Shown here: piece after piece, positions 6,543 through 25,721 of the stretch
How the letters are laid out: every line of letters begins with the position of its first letter
How positions within the stretch are numbered: the stretch's first letter is position 1
Assembly (NCBI GenBank): GCA_016207515.1
Contig: JACQPN010000007.1
Location: forward strand, 1 to 64,000
Length of the DNA stretch: 64,000 nucleotides
Origin: Euryarchaeota archaeon
Lineage (GTDB): Archaea > Thermoplasmatota > SW-10-69-26 > JACQPN01
Direction of reading: 5' to 3'
Made by a program: the position numbers and the translations under genes
The notes under the pieces: model-generated
The model's database searches: none
Told to the model about the DNA's origin: nothing
Seen by the model: only the letters and a program-made list of their open reading frames with translations

Positions 6543-8027
6543 CTACTCCGTAATCTGCGCCTTCTGCAGCTTGTCCGAGTAATCCACGAACACCGTCTTG
6601 ATCTCCGTGAACTCCTCGATCGCGGTCGTGCCGGCCTCGCGTCCGCCGTTTCCTGTGTTCTTCACACCGCCGAATGGCAAGTGTACTTCCGCGCCGATCG
6701 TGGGTGCATTGATGTACGTGATGCCGGTCTCCAAAGCCTCGATGGCCTTGAATGCCTTGTTCACGTCCTTGGTGTAGATTGAGGACGAGAGGCCGTATTC
6801 GACGTCGTTTGCGACCTTCACGGCCTCGTCGAAGTCCTTCACTTTGATGACCGACAGCACAGGCCCGAATATCTCCTCCTTGGTGACGCGCATCCCGTGC
6901 TTGGCCTCAAGGATCGTGGGCTCGATGAAGTAGCCCTTGTCGTAATCGCCGCCGGTGATCTTCTTTCCGCCGGTCACGAACTTCGCGCCCTCTTTCTTGG
7001 CGATGTCGATGTACTTGAGGACCGTCTTCTCTTGGTCGGCTCCCGAGACTGGTCCCACGTCGACTTTTGCATCTATGGGGTTTCCGATCCGAAGTTTCTT
7101 CGTCCTCGTGACGAGCCGCTCCATCACCTGGTCGTAGACGCCTTTCTCCACGATGAGCCGCGAGGTGGCCGTACAGCGTTGTCCCGCGGTGCCGAACGCC
7201 CCCCACAAGACGCCTTCGATGGCGAGGTCCACGTTCGCGTCGTTTAGGACTATCTGCGGGTTCTTGCCCCCGAGTTCGAGCTCCACCGATTTCAGGTACT
7301 TCGCGGCCCGCGTGTAGACATCACGCCCCGCGTCGCCGCCGCCGGTGAATGACACGGCCGCGACCTTGGGGTGCTCGACGATCGTGGTCCCGACGACCGA
7401 ACCGCTTCCAGTTACCATGTTGAGAACACCCGGCGGAAGGCCTGCTTCGTCAAGCACTTCGACGAGTGCCGCCGCGCACCATGGGGTCTTGCTCGCCGGC
7501 TTGAAAACGGCCGTGTTCCCGGCGACGAGCGCAGCGCCGATCTTCCAGGAGGGGATCGCGACGGGGAAGTTCCACGGCGTGATGAGCCCGACCGTGCCGA
7601 TCGGCCGGCGCACGGTCATGCAGAACTTGCTCCGAAGTTCCGACGTGGTGGTCTCGCCGAAGAGCCTCCTTCCCTCACCAGCGATGTATTCGAAGAAATC
7701 GATCGCTTCCTGGACGTCGCCACGCCCCTCCTTGATGGCCTTGCCCATCTCCTTTGTGACGAGTTGCCCCATCTCCTCCTTGCGCTTTCGCATGAGGCGC
7801 GCGGCCTCGAGAAGGATCTCGCCCCGCGCAGGGGCGGGCATCGACGCCCATTCCGGGAAGGCGGCTACGGCGGCCTTGATCGCCTTCTCCGTCTCCTCCT
7901 TTGTGGCCGACGGGAAGCGCGAGAGCACCTCGCCGGTGGCCGGGTTCACCGACTCGATGCGCTCCTTTGACGCTGAATCGATCCACTTGCCGCTTATGAA
8001 GAGGCCGTACTCCTTGGGCTTGACCAT
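6543..8027 (-). CDS. NAD(P)-dependent aldehyde dehydrogenase
   Basis: From the ATG at 8027 the protein has 494 residues, the usual length for the family. Seen are the PWNFPVAI motif, a cofactor-loop region (FTGGGDAG), the catalytic Glu in ELELGGKNP (about residue 251) and the catalytic Cys in GQRCTA (about residue 285). It oxidises an aldehyde to an acid with NAD or NADP. The sequence around the active site resembles alpha-ketoglutarate semialdehyde and succinate semialdehyde dehydrogenases, but the substrate cannot be fixed. A GTG at 8048 would add seven residues. A TATA-like ATTTCA lies near 8066. It is a single-gene unit. Confidence 0.88.
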   Translation of the reverse strand: MVKPKEYGLFISGKWIDSASKERIESVNPATGEVLSRFPSATKEETEKAIKAAVAAFPEWASMPAPARGEILLEAARLMRKRKEEMGQLVTKEMGKAIKEGRGDVQEAIDFFEYIAGEGRRLFGETTTSELRSKFCMTVRRPIGTVGLITPWNFPVAIPSWKIGAALVAGNTAVFKPASKTPWCAAALVEVLDEAGLPPGVLNMVTGSGSVVGTTIVEHPKVAAVSFTGGGDAGRDVYTRAAKYLKSVELELGGKNPQIVLNDANVDLAIEGVLWGAFGTAGQRCTATSRLIVEKGVYDQVMERLVTRTKKLRIGNPIDAKVDVGPVSGADQEKTVLKYIDIAKKEGAKFVTGGKKITGGDYDKGYFIEPTILEAKHGMRVTKEEIFGPVLSVIKVKDFDEAVKVANDVEYGLSSSIYTKDVNKAFKAIEALETGITYINAPTIGAEVHLPFGGVKNTGNGGREAGTTAIEEFTEIKTVFVDYSDKLQKAQITE

Positions 8028-18669: not shown

Positions 18670-19836
18670 ATGAGGGCCATCATATTGGCGGCGGGCGAGG
18701 GGATGCGCCTTCGGCCTCTCACAAACTCCAAACCGAAGGTCATGATCCCGGTGGCGAACCGGCCTATACTCGAATACGTGGTCGAGGCCCTGGTCAAGAA
18801 CAAGGTGAAGGACATCACCATAGTCGCCGGCTACCGCCGCGAGGTCGTCCAATCCTACTTCGAGGACGGCCGCCGGTTCGACTGCAAGATCAAGTACGTC
18901 TTCCAAGACTCTCCCATCGGGACCGCCCACGCCCTGTCTCTTGCATTCGACGGGCCCGGTGAATCGCTGGTCCTCGGCGGCGACAACATCATCGACGGCG
19001 ACCTCGTCGGTGCAATCACCTCGGAGGGCGAGGGCCTTCGCCTCGCGATCGCCCACAGCGACAATCCGGCGAAGTACGGCGTCGTACAGCTCTCCGGCAA
19101 GTACGTGAAATCCTTGGAAGAGAAGCCGCGCGAAGCCAAGTCCGACCTCGTGAACGCGGGTGTCTACGTCATCCCGCAAGGCTTCAGGAACCTTTTGAAC
19201 GAGGCCGTGAAGAACGGCGTTCACCAGCTTCCGGACGTGATCCAGGCGGCGATCGACAACGGCGAGAAGGTGATGGGTGTCAAGACCGCGGCCGGGGCAT
19301 GGATGGACGCAGTCTACCCTTGGGACATCCTGAACATCAACGCCAAGATCCTCGCCCGCGAGGCGCCGGACGAGAAAAAGGGGTCGGTGATCAAGGGAAA
19401 GGCGGCGATCATCCGGCCGACGGCCGACGTGCGCGGGCCGACGATCGTCGGCGACGGTTCGATCATCGAAGCCAACACCGTCGTCTATCCGTCATCGGCC
19501 ATAGGGAAGAACGTCACCATCGGCCCCGCCTGCGTCATCGAGAACAGCGTCATCATGGACGACGCCGAGATCGGGCCGGGCTCGATAATCAAGAACAGCG
19601 TCATATCGTCTGGCGTGCGGACAGGCCCGCGCTTCACGGCCATCTCGGGACTCGCCGACTTCAAGGCGCAGGACGGCTTCTACACGCTTTCCGACTTCGG
19701 ATGCGTCGTCGGCGAGGACGTCGTGATCGGGGGGAACGTTTCGCTCGAACCCGGCGTCGTCGTGGGATCAAGGTCCACCATCAGGTCGAACGTGAACCTC
19801 AGCCGCTCGATCCCTGATTCTGCGAGGGTCGAATAG
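18670..19836 (+). CDS. Sugar-1-phosphate nucleotidyltransferase with LbH domain (GlmU-like)
   Basis: The 388-residue protein starts MRAIILAAGEGMRLRPLT, the nucleotide-binding loop of sugar-phosphate nucleotidyltransferases, and contains VLGGDNIIDGD with the metal-binding Asp. From about residue 245 it has a left-handed beta-helix with hexapeptide repeats (IGKNVTIGPACVIENSVIM). Archaeal proteins of this design activate sugar phosphates with UTP or dTTP and may N-acetylate amino sugars. It heads the operon with glmS, glmM and a second such gene. Which one makes UDP-GlcNAc is not decidable here. Confidence 0.87.
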   Translation: MRAIILAAGEGMRLRPLTNSKPKVMIPVANRPILEYVVEALVKNKVKDITIVAGYRREVVQSYFEDGRRFDCKIKYVFQDSPIGTAHALSLAFDGPGESLVLGGDNIIDGDLVGAITSEGEGLRLAIAHSDNPAKYGVVQLSGKYVKSLEEKPREAKSDLVNAGVYVIPQGFRNLLNEAVKNGVHQLPDVIQAAIDNGEKVMGVKTAAGAWMDAVYPWDILNINAKILAREAPDEKKGSVIKGKAAIIRPTADVRGPTIVGDGSIIEANTVVYPSSAIGKNVTIGPACVIENSVIMDDAEIGPGSIIKNSVISSGVRTGPRFTAISGLADFKAQDGFYTLSDFGCVVGEDVVIGGNVSLEPGVVVGSRSTIRSNVNLSRSIPDSARVE

Positions 19837-21661: not shown

Positions 21662-22969
21662 ATGGGCCTCTTTGGCTCCAGCGGGATCCGCGGGAAGGTC
21701 TTCGAACGTATCACGCCCGAGCTTTCGCTCAAGGTCGGCCTGGCCGTCGGGGCCGCGCATAAGCGCGTCGTCGTGGGACGCGACACCCGGACGTCGGGAC
21801 CGATGCTTGAAAACGCCCTCGTCTCCGGTCTACTTTCCGCGGGGGCGCAGGTCCGCACCTGCGGCGTCGTGACCACGCCTACGCTCGCGTACGCCGCGCG
21901 GGACTTCGACTGCGGCGTAGTCGTCACCGCGAGCCACAATCCCGGCGAGTACAACGGCATCAAGCTCTGGAATCCGGACGGCATGGCGTTCAGCGTGAAG
22001 CAACAGGAGGAGGTCGAGCGGCGCGTCGCTGGCGAACCTGCGCATGGCCCATGGCGGGACTCGCCTTCGCCGACGGATAATCCCGGCGCCGTCGAGCGGC
22101 ACATGAAGGCGCTTCTCCGCGACGCCCTTTCCGCCAACGGCACCAAGGTCGTCGTCGACTCGGGGAACGGCCCCGGGGCCACGATCACGCCCGAGATGCT
22201 TCGGCGAATGGGTGCCTCGGTCGTCACTTTGAACGCGCAACTCGACGGCACGTTCCCGGCGCGAGACCCCGAACCGACTCCAGAGAACCTCAAGGACCTT
22301 TCCCTGACCGTCACCGCCTCGGGGGCAGCCCTCGGCATCGCCCACGATGGCGACGCCGACCGCATGGTGGCGGTCGACGAGACCGGGACCGTCCTCGGCG
22401 GCGACTTGACCCTCGCGCTCTTCGCCCGGTCCTTGGGGGCCCGCACCATTGTCGTGCCTATCGACACGAGCATGGCCGTGGACAGCTTCCTCAAAGGCGT
22501 GAAGGTCATCAAGGGCCGGGTGGGGGACCAGTTCATCTCCGAGGACGTCAAGGCGCACGGTGCCAGCTTCGGCGGCGAACCGTCCGGCGCTTGGATATTC
22601 CCACGCGTGAGCCTCTGCCCCGACGGGCCCCACGCCGCAAAGCGCATGGTCGAGATCGTGACTAGGGAAGGCCCGCTTTCGAAAGTCGCGGCGGAGTTTC
22701 CGAGCCTGCCGATCAAACGGCACGCGGTGAAAGTGCCCGAAGGGGACAAGGCGAAGACAATGCGGCACGTCAAGGAACTTGCCTCAAGGCTTGGCCGGAC
22801 GAGCTCCATCGACGGGGTTCGTGTCGACCTCGAGGACGGGTGGCTCCTCATACGACCGAGCGGCACGGAACCGAAGATCAGGATAACCGCGGAAGCAAAG
22901 ACCGAGAAGCGGATGGAGGACATCTTCACGAAAGCGTCGGATATACTTGACAAGGCGGTGAAGGCGTGA
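21662..22969 (+). CDS. glmM: Phosphoglucosamine mutase (GlmM-like)
   Basis: This 435-residue alpha-D-phosphohexomutase has FGSSGIRG at the N-terminus, the phosphoserine loop TASHNPGEYNG, the metal loop DGDADR and the sugar-specificity and phosphate loops near GGEPSGAWIF and RPSGTEPKIR. It should move phosphate between C6 and C1 of glucosamine phosphate. Family members also act on glucose or mannose phosphates; the glmS neighbour favours glucosamine. It starts 3 bases after glmS. Confidence 0.93.
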   Translation: MGLFGSSGIRGKVFERITPELSLKVGLAVGAAHKRVVVGRDTRTSGPMLENALVSGLLSAGAQVRTCGVVTTPTLAYAARDFDCGVVVTASHNPGEYNGIKLWNPDGMAFSVKQQEEVERRVAGEPAHGPWRDSPSPTDNPGAVERHMKALLRDALSANGTKVVVDSGNGPGATITPEMLRRMGASVVTLNAQLDGTFPARDPEPTPENLKDLSLTVTASGAALGIAHDGDADRMVAVDETGTVLGGDLTLALFARSLGARTIVVPIDTSMAVDSFLKGVKVIKGRVGDQFISEDVKAHGASFGGEPSGAWIFPRVSLCPDGPHAAKRMVEIVTREGPLSKVAAEFPSLPIKRHAVKVPEGDKAKTMRHVKELASRLGRTSSIDGVRVDLEDGWLLIRPSGTEPKIRITAEAKTEKRMEDIFTKASDILDKAVKA

Positions 22970-24198
22970 GGAAAGAAAAACGCAAGACGCGACCGGCCTC
23001 CGCCAAAGGAAGCGAACTGCGCGCCGTGATCCTTGCCGCTGGAGAGGGGAAACGCATGCGTCCGCTCACGGCCAACATGTCGAAATGCATGCTGCCGGTC
23101 GCAGGAGTCCCCATCGTTGAGCGTCTTGTTCTATCGCTGAAAAGCGCCGGTATGAGAGGCGCGACGATCGTCGTCGGCTACAAGGAGGAGCGCATCCGCG
23201 AGCACTTCGGCGATGGGAGGAAGTGGGATGTCTCCATTGATTACGTGGTACAGAAGGAGCAACTTGGAACGGGCCACGCGCTCGCCCAGATTCCCGAGAC
23301 CGTGGGCCGTTTCATGGTCGCGAACGGCGACATTCTGGTAGACGCGGCGTCGGTCAAGGCGATCGCGTCGCACCCGGGATTCGCGGTCGCCGGCGTCACG
23401 GTGAAGGACCCGACGGAATACGGGACCTTTCGCCTCAGCGGCAAGACCATCCAGGAGATCGTCGAGAAGAGCACGACACCGCCGTCAAGCCACGCGAACG
23501 CGGGCCTCTACATGATCGACTCCACGGTACTCGAAGCCGCAAGAAGTCTCTCGAAGACTGAACGCGGCGAGTTCGAGATCGTGGACGCCGTGAACGCCGC
23601 CATCGCGAAAGGCGCCAGGTTCGAGATGGTGGACATGCGCGAATGGCGCGATGTGGGCCGTCCGTGGCACTTGCTCGAAGCAAACGAAGAGGCGATGCGC
23701 GAAGTCAAGACCCGACTCAATGGGACGGTCGAGAAGGGGGCGACCCTCAAGGGCGCCGTACAGGTGGGAAAGGGCGCTGTCGTGAGGGCCGGTGCTTACA
23801 TCGAAGGCCCCGTGATCATCGGAGCGAACTGCACTGTAGGACCGAACTGCTACATCCGACCAGGCACCGTCCTCATGGAAGGCGCGAAGGTCGGGAACGG
23901 TTGCGAAGTCAAGAACAGCATCATAATGGCGAACGCCCACGTGAACCACCTCTCGTACGTGGGGGACAGCATCATAGGCGAGCGTGTGAACCTCGGCGCG
24001 GGGACCAAGGTCGCCAACCTCCGGCACGATGGGAAGACGATCAAAGCGAAGTGGGATGGACAAAAGTTCGACACGGGAAGACGGAAGTTCGGAGTAGTTC
24101 TGGGCGATGACGTCCACACGGGGATCAACACGAGCTTGAACGTTGGCGTGATGCTGGCGGCGAAGGCGGCGACTAGACCCGGCGACGTGGTGCTCTAG
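22966..24198 (+). CDS. glmU: Bifunctional GlmU-like nucleotidyltransferase/acetyltransferase
   Basis: This 410-residue protein has a basic N-terminal extension and then AVILAAGEGKRMRPLT of the nucleotidyltransferase domain. A left-handed beta-helix (about residues 255-400) ends GDDVHTGINTSLNVG and TRPGDVVL, as in archaeal GlmU. It should acetylate glucosamine 1-phosphate and attach UMP. The GTG start overlaps the glmM stop. The last 32 codons are present again, diverged, at 24700-24821 beyond the hicBA genes. Confidence 0.9.
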   Translation: MRKEKRKTRPASAKGSELRAVILAAGEGKRMRPLTANMSKCMLPVAGVPIVERLVLSLKSAGMRGATIVVGYKEERIREHFGDGRKWDVSIDYVVQKEQLGTGHALAQIPETVGRFMVANGDILVDAASVKAIASHPGFAVAGVTVKDPTEYGTFRLSGKTIQEIVEKSTTPPSSHANAGLYMIDSTVLEAARSLSKTERGEFEIVDAVNAAIAKGARFEMVDMREWRDVGRPWHLLEANEEAMREVKTRLNGTVEKGATLKGAVQVGKGAVVRAGAYIEGPVIIGANCTVGPNCYIRPGTVLMEGAKVGNGCEVKNSIIMANAHVNHLSYVGDSIIGERVNLGAGTKVANLRHDGKTIKAKWDGQKFDTGRRKFGVVLGDDVHTGINTSLNVGVMLAAKAATRPGDVVL

Positions 24199-24238
24199 CG
24201 GCAACGTCAGCACCCAGACGCCGAAAGCGGGACAATTC

Positions 24239-24248
24239 TGATATACAC
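24239..24248 (+). promoter_or_regulatory. TATA box of hicBA
   Basis: TGATATACAC is centred about 30 bases before the hicB ATG at 24273, with AGGAAAG just before the start. Confidence 0.5.
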
Positions 24249-24272
24249 CCCCCGACTACTCTTAGGAAAGAA

Positions 24273-24821
24273 ATGCGATTATCCGCAGTCATCCGGAAGG
24301 AAGGTCGCCTCTTCGTGTCATGGTGCCCGGAACTGGACGTTGCCAGCCAGGGCAGGACGCGTAAGCAAGCCCTCAGCAATCTCGTTGAAGCCGTTCAGTT
24401 GTACCTGGAGGACGAGGACGCGAAAACGCCTCCGGGGAAAGCCTACCTCACGACGTTCGAGATCGAGGATGGCAAGACTTCCCGTCCTGCGAGCGCGTGG
24501 GGTTTTGGCCGCGCTGCGGCGCGCCGGGTTCGAGAGAGTCGGTCAACACTGCAGTCACGTCAGGCTCAAGGGGATCGTGCGTGGCGCGACGCGGGTTGTC
24601 GTCGTTCCGAACCATCCGGAGATCGCGCCTGGAACCCTCCTATCGATCATCCGTCAATCGGGCCTCACGCGAAAAGAGTTCGAGCGGTTGCTCCGATAGA
24701 CAGGCGCCCGATCCACGTCGTTCGCGGCGACGACCTCCACACGGGGATCAACACGAGCCTCAACGTGGGAGTGATGATGGCGGCTGGGGCATCGACGAGG
24801 CCGGGCGAAGTGGTCCTCTAG
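24273..24821 (+). CDS. hicB: HicB-family antitoxin, frame running on through hicA
   Basis: The first about 70 residues (RLFVSWCPELDVASQGRTRKQALSNLVEAVQLYLEDED) are a typical partial-RNase-H HicB antitoxin. HicB neutralises HicA and often represses the operon. No stop follows the conserved part. The frame stays open through the whole of hicA in another phase and ends in the glmU-like remnant, giving 182 residues in total. Related antitoxins end soon after the hicA start, so the functional protein may have lost its own stop. An open frame by chance in GC-rich DNA explains the length equally well. Confidence 0.75.
   Translation: MRLSAVIRKEGRLFVSWCPELDVASQGRTRKQALSNLVEAVQLYLEDEDAKTPPGKAYLTTFEIEDGKTSRPASAWGFGRAAARRVRESRSTLQSRQAQGDRAWRDAGCRRSEPSGDRAWNPPIDHPSIGPHAKRVRAVAPIDRRPIHVVRGDDLHTGINTSLNVGVMMAAGASTRPGEVVL
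24469..24699 (+). CDS. hicA: HicA-family mRNA interferase toxin
   Basis: This 76-residue protein matches HicA: LPVLRARGVLAALRRAGFERV, then CSHVRL holding the catalytic His (usually GSHVRL), then VVVPNHPEIAPGTLLSIIRQSGLTRKEFERLL. HicA cleaves mRNA on ribosomes. The ATG at 24469 lies inside the hicB frame, with GATCGAGG before it. The Gly-to-Cys change next to the catalytic His is unusual. hicB comes first, as is common in archaea. Confidence 0.85.
   Translation: MARLPVLRARGVLAALRRAGFERVGQHCSHVRLKGIVRGATRVVVVPNHPEIAPGTLLSIIRQSGLTRKEFERLLR
24700..24821 (+). pseudogene. Remnant of a second glmU 3' end
   Basis: Read in frame, this stretch ends GDDLHTGINTSLNVGVMMAA and RPGEVVL before a TAG, matching the last 32 codons of glmU at 24103-24198. 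Over about 96 bases some four in five are identical and most differences are silent, so it derives from a diverged homologue rather than a fresh copy. Similarity starts directly after the hicA stop. It has no start of its own. Confidence 0.8.
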
Positions 24822-25372
24822 GGGGCGTCCGCGGGCTTTTCCTTGCCCAGGTATTCAACGTGCGCGACCCATTCGTAACTAATGTCTCGGGCAAGGACGG
24901 TCTTGTAGCTTGCCGGGCCCCCGTACCTTCCTGGCGGCAGAATCCCCATTTCCTTTGTTTCGTTGCTGCCGAATTCCACTTTCTCGCCCATCGGACCCCA
25001 CGCCAACTCAAGGCGCAAGTCACCCGTGGCCGAGAATCGCGCCACTACCGTCGCCTTCAAGTAACTGTTCGTTTCCAACGTCGACCCGTCAAAATGCGTC
25101 ATTAACGCGCCTGCATCGGTCGCTAGTGCCGCCCCGCCGCTGCCCGTGAAGGATCGCGGCCTTAAGCCTGTGGCATTTTCCACGCCCGTAGTCGGAGCAT
25201 TTGCCACGGACGTCGATTGCTCGCCATCGGGTTTCAATGGGGAAGGGGTCGCCTCCCCATCCGAGCCCGCCGCCCCCATGTCGGTCGCACTGGGCGTTAG
25301 ACACCCGGCCAACGCTATAAACAAAACGAGGCCGTACGGGGCCAATCCAATTGATGCCCTACGGGTCGGCAT
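24818..25372 (-). CDS. Lipoprotein, unknown function
   Basis: The 184-residue product has a lipoprotein signal ending IALAGC, then a Ser/Thr/Pro/Gly-rich linker and a beta-rich C-terminal part (LKATVVARFSATGDLRLELAWG). It should be anchored outside the cell. No family is recognised. It converges on the glmU remnant, overlapping it by 4 bases, and its start overlaps the end of the secreted-protein gene upstream by 14 bases, so the two form an operon. Confidence 0.65.
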   Translation of the reverse strand: MPTRRASIGLAPYGLVLFIALAGCLTPSATDMGAAGSDGEATPSPLKPDGEQSTSVANAPTTGVENATGLRPRSFTGSGGAALATDAGALMTHFDGSTLETNSYLKATVVARFSATGDLRLELAWGPMGEKVEFGSNETKEMGILPPGRYGGPASYKTVLARDISYEWVAHVEYLGKEKPADAP

Positions 25373-25721
25373 TTTGTGGTTGTGTCTCCTCTAGATCAAC
25401 GAGGCAAACGGCCTCCGAATCTTGGTACGCGTGTTCCCATTGGTCCCCGTCCTTCGTCGCCTCATGGGTCTGGTAGTAATTGCAGTACACCTGGCCGTTG
25501 CTTCCGTCCAGCAGATACGAGCATTTTCGACTCTCTACGACGTATGCGCGGTTCCCGTCCGGCGACTGCCAACGGTACCACTCTTCGAATGCAGTGCAGG
25601 AGGCGCCGGTCGGATCGGCACGCGCACCAGAAATTAGGACCAAGCCAATCGTCGCGGTCATGATGACACTCGTAACCAACATTTGTTGTGCCTTCAAGTT
25701 TTTCCTTGCCCCTGCGACCAC
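25359..25721 (-). CDS. Small secreted Cys-containing protein, unknown
   Basis: This 120-residue protein has a basic n-region (RKNLKAQQ), a hydrophobic stretch and a likely cleavage after SGARA. The mature part has four Cys that could form two disulfides and is rich in Tyr, Trp, Glu and Gln. The start may be GTG at 25721 or ATG at 25682; the longer form gives the better signal peptide. The gene is co-directional with the lipoprotein it overlaps. No family is recognised. Confidence 0.55.
   Translation of the reverse strand: MVAGARKNLKAQQMLVTSVIMTATIGLVLISGARADPTGASCTAFEEWYRWQSPDGNRAYVVESRKCSYLLDGSNGQVYCNYYQTHEATKDGDQWEHAYQDSEAVCLVDLEETQPQNADP

Follow-up and report, generated by a model that had tools for sequence, protein, structure and literature searches.

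A hicBA toxin-antitoxin pair between two diverged copies of the glmU 3' end in an archaeal genome: a candidate insertion scar

Toxin-antitoxin (TA) pairs spread widely, and the entry of a bare pair into a chromosome, with no transposase or integrase of its own, is rarely visible. The locus described here, in which a hicBA pair lies between two copies of the end of a glmU-type gene (Table 1), raises the questions of where the second gene end came from and how the pair came to separate the two. The window (the whole 64,000-nucleotide stretch that was analysed) is part of contig C7 in a genome of 2.67 Mb that comprises 25 contigs, is 98.4% complete and behaves as a metagenome assembly.

Table 1 Features of the glmU-hicBA locus, in window coordinates.
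Feature	Coordinates	Strand	Evidence
glmU-type gene, intact (sugar-1-phosphate nucleotidylyltransferase plus hexapeptide domain)	22966..24198	+	Pfam NTP_transferase 1e-37, Hexapep 2.5e-16
Copy 1, 3' end of the intact glmU	24094..24201	+	self-comparison, alignment
Spacer opening the inserted unit; TATA-like stretch ~24239-24248, AGGAAAG ahead of hicB	24202..24272	+	by eye
hicB antitoxin open reading frame, 182 aa frame; conserved part ~24273-24497	24273..24821	+	
hicA toxin, 76 aa	24469..24699	+	PF07927 E 2.3e-13, above cut-off
Copy 2, displaced glmU 3' end lacking its own start; glmU and hicB frames both open	24717..24824	+	
Convergent lipoprotein-like gene, stop overlapping the copy-2 stop (CTAG)	24818..25372	-	no Pfam match

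Self-comparison of the whole 64-kb window returned the glmU-end repeat with an E value of ~3e-20, which rules out chance. No other short gene-end repeat came up in the window; the remaining direct repeats are long, of low identity and confined to 35-42 kb. The two copies align over 108 nt without gaps, at 81% identity and a spacing of 623 bp, and the repeated stretch consists of the last 105 coding bases of glmU plus 3 nt. The first-pass annotation had placed the match at the last 32 codons (24103-24198 and 24726-24821), with some four bases in five in common; its coordinates were right, the match running ~9 nt further upstream. The two copies keep to the glmU frame and each closes with a stop (GDDVHTGINTSLNVGVMLAAKAATRPGDVVL and GDDLHTGINTSLNVGVMMAAGASTRPGEVVL), with 26 of 31 residues identical, and copy 2 still contains no stop, frameshift or gap after ~19% divergence. 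The differences over the 105 nt fall 5/2/13 at codon positions 1/2/3. Fifteen codons differ, 10 of them silently and 5 with replacement of the amino acid, so that the earlier description of most changes as silent applies to codons, but some of the changes in copy 2 do alter the protein.

The edges of the repeat lie close to two stop codons. Its second copy starts 18 nt (perhaps 3 nt) past the hicA stop, as weak similarity may start at ~24702, right behind that stop, and its other edge is the glmU stop plus 3 nt. Since the boundaries hug the glmU and hicA stops, the interval amounts to the TA unit alone. The longest identical run between the copies (23 nt) is a motif conserved across the family and therefore marks no crossover point by itself.

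The host gene is the final member of a glmS-glmM-glmU run, and the glmS- and glmM-type genes that precede it support its name. Its orthologues in genomes of the same order, the closest genomes in our comparison, are 49-51% identical. Clusters of this type often include GlmU-like paralogues: the window contains another at 18670, and one relative (G012) carries two GlmU-like genes in tandem.

Only the spacer, hicB and hicA lie between the copies, forming a minimal unit of ~0.5 kb in which the spacer has, as inferred by eye, a putative promoter role. The HicA protein retains the conserved His of the GSH motif, which reads CSH in the window, and its nearest relatives are those of G004 (64% identity, same order) and G213 (60%). 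In named records the nearest hicA relatives come almost throughout from archaeal assemblies, and on this ground the window is taken to be archaeal. The HicB-type frame matches DUF7387 (E 1e-5 to 5e-5) just under the curated Pfam cut-off, as do the HicB partners in G004 and G213. Differences from G004 by codon position (22/14/43 for hicA and 22/18/38 for hicB) indicate selected genes rather than random sequence. Going by family membership, we take hicBA to be an ordinary TA pair favouring its own retention, with HicA a predicted RNA-cleaving toxin and HicB its antitoxin. The hicB gene has no stop of its own: where its closest relative, in G004, stops after 75 codons, the window reads TGG (24498-24500), and the frame passes through hicA to end at the glmU stop of copy 2 at 24821 (182 codons). 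The predicted product of this extended frame would be a 182-residue HicB; the in-frame match of hicB with copy 2 has by itself a chance of one in three.

Where the second gene end came from was addressed through its kinship and its pattern of change. In a neighbour-joining tree of glmU tails with codon bootstrap, copies 1 and 2 are sisters (0.88); they are 82% identical to each other and 70-75% identical to the tails of three same-order genomes, and both finish in VVL and a stop, unlike the tails of the other genomes. Because the copies group together before any other genome, the second end appears to have its source in a close relative rather than in some distant glmU. Aligned to relatives' glmU genes, as the first-pass annotation had proposed, the copies pair together yet are 18% apart, and neither is nearer the same-order genomes. 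The distances of the two copies to those genomes are about equal and their third-position G+C is the same, so these two measures, tried as ways of choosing the native copy, favoured neither.

We compared the codon-position pattern with simulations of an in-place duplication in which copy 1 was constrained and copy 2 neutral, conditioned on ~20 differences. With equal rates, seven or fewer changes at positions 1 and 2 had P 0.016-0.026, rising to P 0.10 in the mildest variant, in which copy 1 evolved twice as fast; when copy 2 was also constrained, the same outcome had P 0.21-0.83. This short test (35 codons) is only moderately decisive. Since the pattern is improbable under neutral decay, each end was most likely still in use by a gene while the two drew apart. 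Copy 2 was probably a working end for most of its separate history. Purifying selection probably shaped most of the divergence, which would have taken place in sister lineages ahead of the displacement of one end. The earlier claim that copy 2 was once the functional end of a different glmU allele accordingly receives moderate support from the 5/2/13 pattern (P ~0.02, or 0.10 in the mildest variant), so that its interpretation as a whole is partly supported; the alternatives that it named, a 3'-end-regenerating integration and gene conversion after duplication, keep some probability. The codon pattern and the tree support, also moderately, an origin of the second end in another, close lineage; a former second gene of the same genome would be a less simple source.

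The explanation that we consider best, at roughly even chances, is that an insertion at the glmU 3' end left this scar, hicBA having come joined to the glmU end of a relative. A unit of ~0.5 kb (promoter region, hicB and hicA) would have arrived fused to the last 32-40 glmU codons of a close lineage, most simply on a circular molecule, and a single site-specific or homologous crossover within the gene end common to both would have integrated it. Upstream of hicBA this would leave glmU complete and with a functional end, and downstream of it the other end, displaced and headless. With no empty-site relative among the genomes compared, we infer the donor, direction and mechanism of this event, including the circular form, the crossover and any recombinase.

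An arrangement of this kind is known from Escherichia coli K-12, where the e14 prophage is a 3'-end-replacing insertion in icd (PMC6379469). As at glmU, the element is inserted in the 3' end of a protein-coding gene; that gene still has its complete end, in which most differences are silent, and a headless copy of the end follows downstream (PMC6379469). In our control comparison, 12 differences over 165 bp separated the displaced end, icdC, from the working icd end (1/0/11 at codon positions 1/2/3), and two residues changed, both conservatively. The glmU locus shares these traits: a full-length end on one side, a headless copy in the same orientation on the other, and copy differences carried mostly by silent sites. 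It differs from e14, which is 15 kb long, has its own integrase and excisionase and lies between copies that are 93% identical, whereas the window unit has 0.5 kb, hicBA only and copies 81% identical. The glmU locus has the form of the e14/icd scar and would be older or from a more distant donor, around a unit about thirty times smaller. In Thaumarchaeota, 14 of 68 mapped elements occupy the 3' ends of protein genes (PMC6563490). These elements resemble the glmU unit in their archaeal host and in their target; they differ in being viruses, plasmids, casposons and other large elements, with attachment sites that are generally short (PMC6563490). Among published mechanisms, end replacement of the e14/icd type gives the best fit to the divergence pattern, with long target duplication as its main rival.

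Several results weigh against the insertion scar. No integrase was matched between the copies or anywhere in the window. The G+C of hicBA (0.616) matches that of the window (0.621), so that composition gives no mark of foreign DNA. A donor sought in viral contigs, plasmids and genome contigs via glmU, hicA and local DNA yielded nothing useful, and the genomes compared, the closest being of the same order, included no relative with an empty site. The genome has five tyrosine-recombinase matches, all outside the window; as candidate agents they were set aside, no gene-end duplication being recognised around any of them.

If the second end did not come from elsewhere, the insertion of hicBA may have duplicated the ~100 bp glmU end in place, with all divergence following afterwards. 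There is precedent for such long target duplication in restriction-modification (RM) systems, which are also addiction modules and are reported (Nobusato 2000 and Furuta 2010, as cited in PMC3874152 and PMC3031569) to insert with long, variable target duplications of ~100 bp. These RM units resemble the glmU locus as naked addiction modules between ~100 bp direct repeats of host sequence; they differ in that their duplications are read as made at insertion, whereas the glmU copies appear to have diverged before they met, and in being bacterial RM systems as opposed to an archaeal type II TA pair. A second point in favour of duplication is the hicBA locus of G213 (L061), which lies between 155-nt noncoding copies (7146-7300 and 7768-7922) that are 98% identical and occur nowhere else in that genome. 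This repeat begins at the hicA stop and folds well (z -3.2); its spacing of 622, against 623 in the window, mostly reflects equal hicBA sizes. Extensive structure is likewise predicted for the ~400 nt that precede the left copy.

Bracketing of hicA is also more frequent than that of control positions, a third point for in-place duplication. Among 62 distinct archaeal loci, which are partly non-independent (L113 and L114, for example), 8 including the window had direct repeats of at least 35 nt around hicA, versus 1 of 671 control positions taken from the same loci (Fisher P 1.4e-8; P 1.6e-6 without the window and G213). The G004 pair is unbracketed. Only in the window is the repeat a clear protein gene end. 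In Methanothrix (L074 1962-3334; L076 2634-3329; L088), two dissimilar hicBA operons stand one behind the other, and immediately after each comes the same structured, GC-rich repeat of ~100 nt. This repeat has no obvious attC core and also follows other hicA genes; the arrangement appears cassette-like or integron-like. At L113 and L114, which belong to two archaeal genomes from the class surveyed around that of Methanothrix, hicBA lies within multi-copy repeats of ~150 nt. No Rfam family matched the G213 repeat or several other loci.

Set against in-place duplication at glmU are the codon pattern of copy 2, improbable under neutral decay, and its uninterrupted frame; the Methanothrix and L113/L114 repeats, being multi-copy and noncoding, are not host targets. 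We consider duplication in place unlikely, if still a serious rival. Given the enrichment and the mixed kinds of repeat, the survey supports hicBA as a mobile unit and not a single mechanism. One mechanism common to the window, G213, Methanothrix, Methanoregula and the others was rejected, the Methanothrix and L113/L114 repeats being of a cassette or dispersed kind. More doubtful than duplication at glmU is a broader proposal: that archaeal hicBA pairs move as naked ~0.5 kb units that lack their own recombinase and enter by recombining with, or duplicating, ~100-170 bp of the host's sequence, which may include gene ends, and that the glmU locus, G213 and the enrichment of bracketed loci are footprints of that one process.

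The constraint on both ends would also be accounted for by a former tandem glmU-type gene of which hicBA replaced all but the last 32-40 codons, and the frequency of GlmU-like paralogues, including the one at 18670 and the tandem pair in G012, lends this idea some plausibility. It encounters two difficulties, in that a close copy in tandem occurs in none of the relatives compared (paralogues are ~35% identical) and that more than 90% of the gene would have to be lost with breakpoints framing hicBA exactly. We regard it as improbable.

Still less credible is an assembly chimera, in which the contig would join two strain variants of the glmU end. Such a join could be suspected in a genome that behaves as a metagenome assembly; against it, a similar arrangement was independently assembled in G213, and the combination of 81% identity with a longest identical run of 23 nt makes the repeat a poor spot for an assembler misjoin.

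Least probable of all, and very much so, is that hicBA is an integron-type cassette and the repeats its recombination sites: TA genes do account for 10.5% of the archaeal integron cassette proteins that have a functional annotation (PMC9668308), and the successive, dissimilar Methanothrix operons each end in a like structured repeat, but the glmU repeat is protein-coding and has no surrounding array, and its fold, no better than chance (z +0.9), together with the absence by eye of an attC or GTTRRRY core, led us to reject an attC reading. The archaeal hicBA cassettes of integrons (PMC9668308) and of the Methanothrix arrays resemble the glmU locus as compact hicBA units between direct repeats; they differ in having noncoding repeats that are found again after a number of different hicBA operons, while the glmU repeat is protein-coding.

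The surroundings of glmU were compared across relatives. Genes downstream of glmU show no synteny within the order or the class. Behind copy 2 lie two small secreted or lipoprotein-like genes on the minus strand, the convergent gene of Table 1 and a second at 25359-25721, without Pfam matches or clear relatives in the class. The convergent gene was a neighbour of glmU in no genome of the class and, having no syntenic relative, was rejected as an anchor of the native side. Another hicBA lies directly downstream of glmU in G001 (L056 7350-7786), convergent and with overlapping stops; a ParE-type toxin with a putative antitoxin occupies this position in G059, and a HEPN protein does so in G015 (TA-type loci L013 and L018). 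No second glmU tail was seen in these three genomes. The TA-type genes behind their glmU may hint at a tolerant, possibly recurrent insertion spot.

If the insertion scar is read correctly, gene-end replacement is a known kind of event, and its passenger here is unusually small. A single scar from a single assembled genome carries modest weight by itself. Taken with the enrichment of bracketed hicBA, a scar in an intact host gene provides concrete loci at which the entry of bare TA pairs into chromosomes can be studied.
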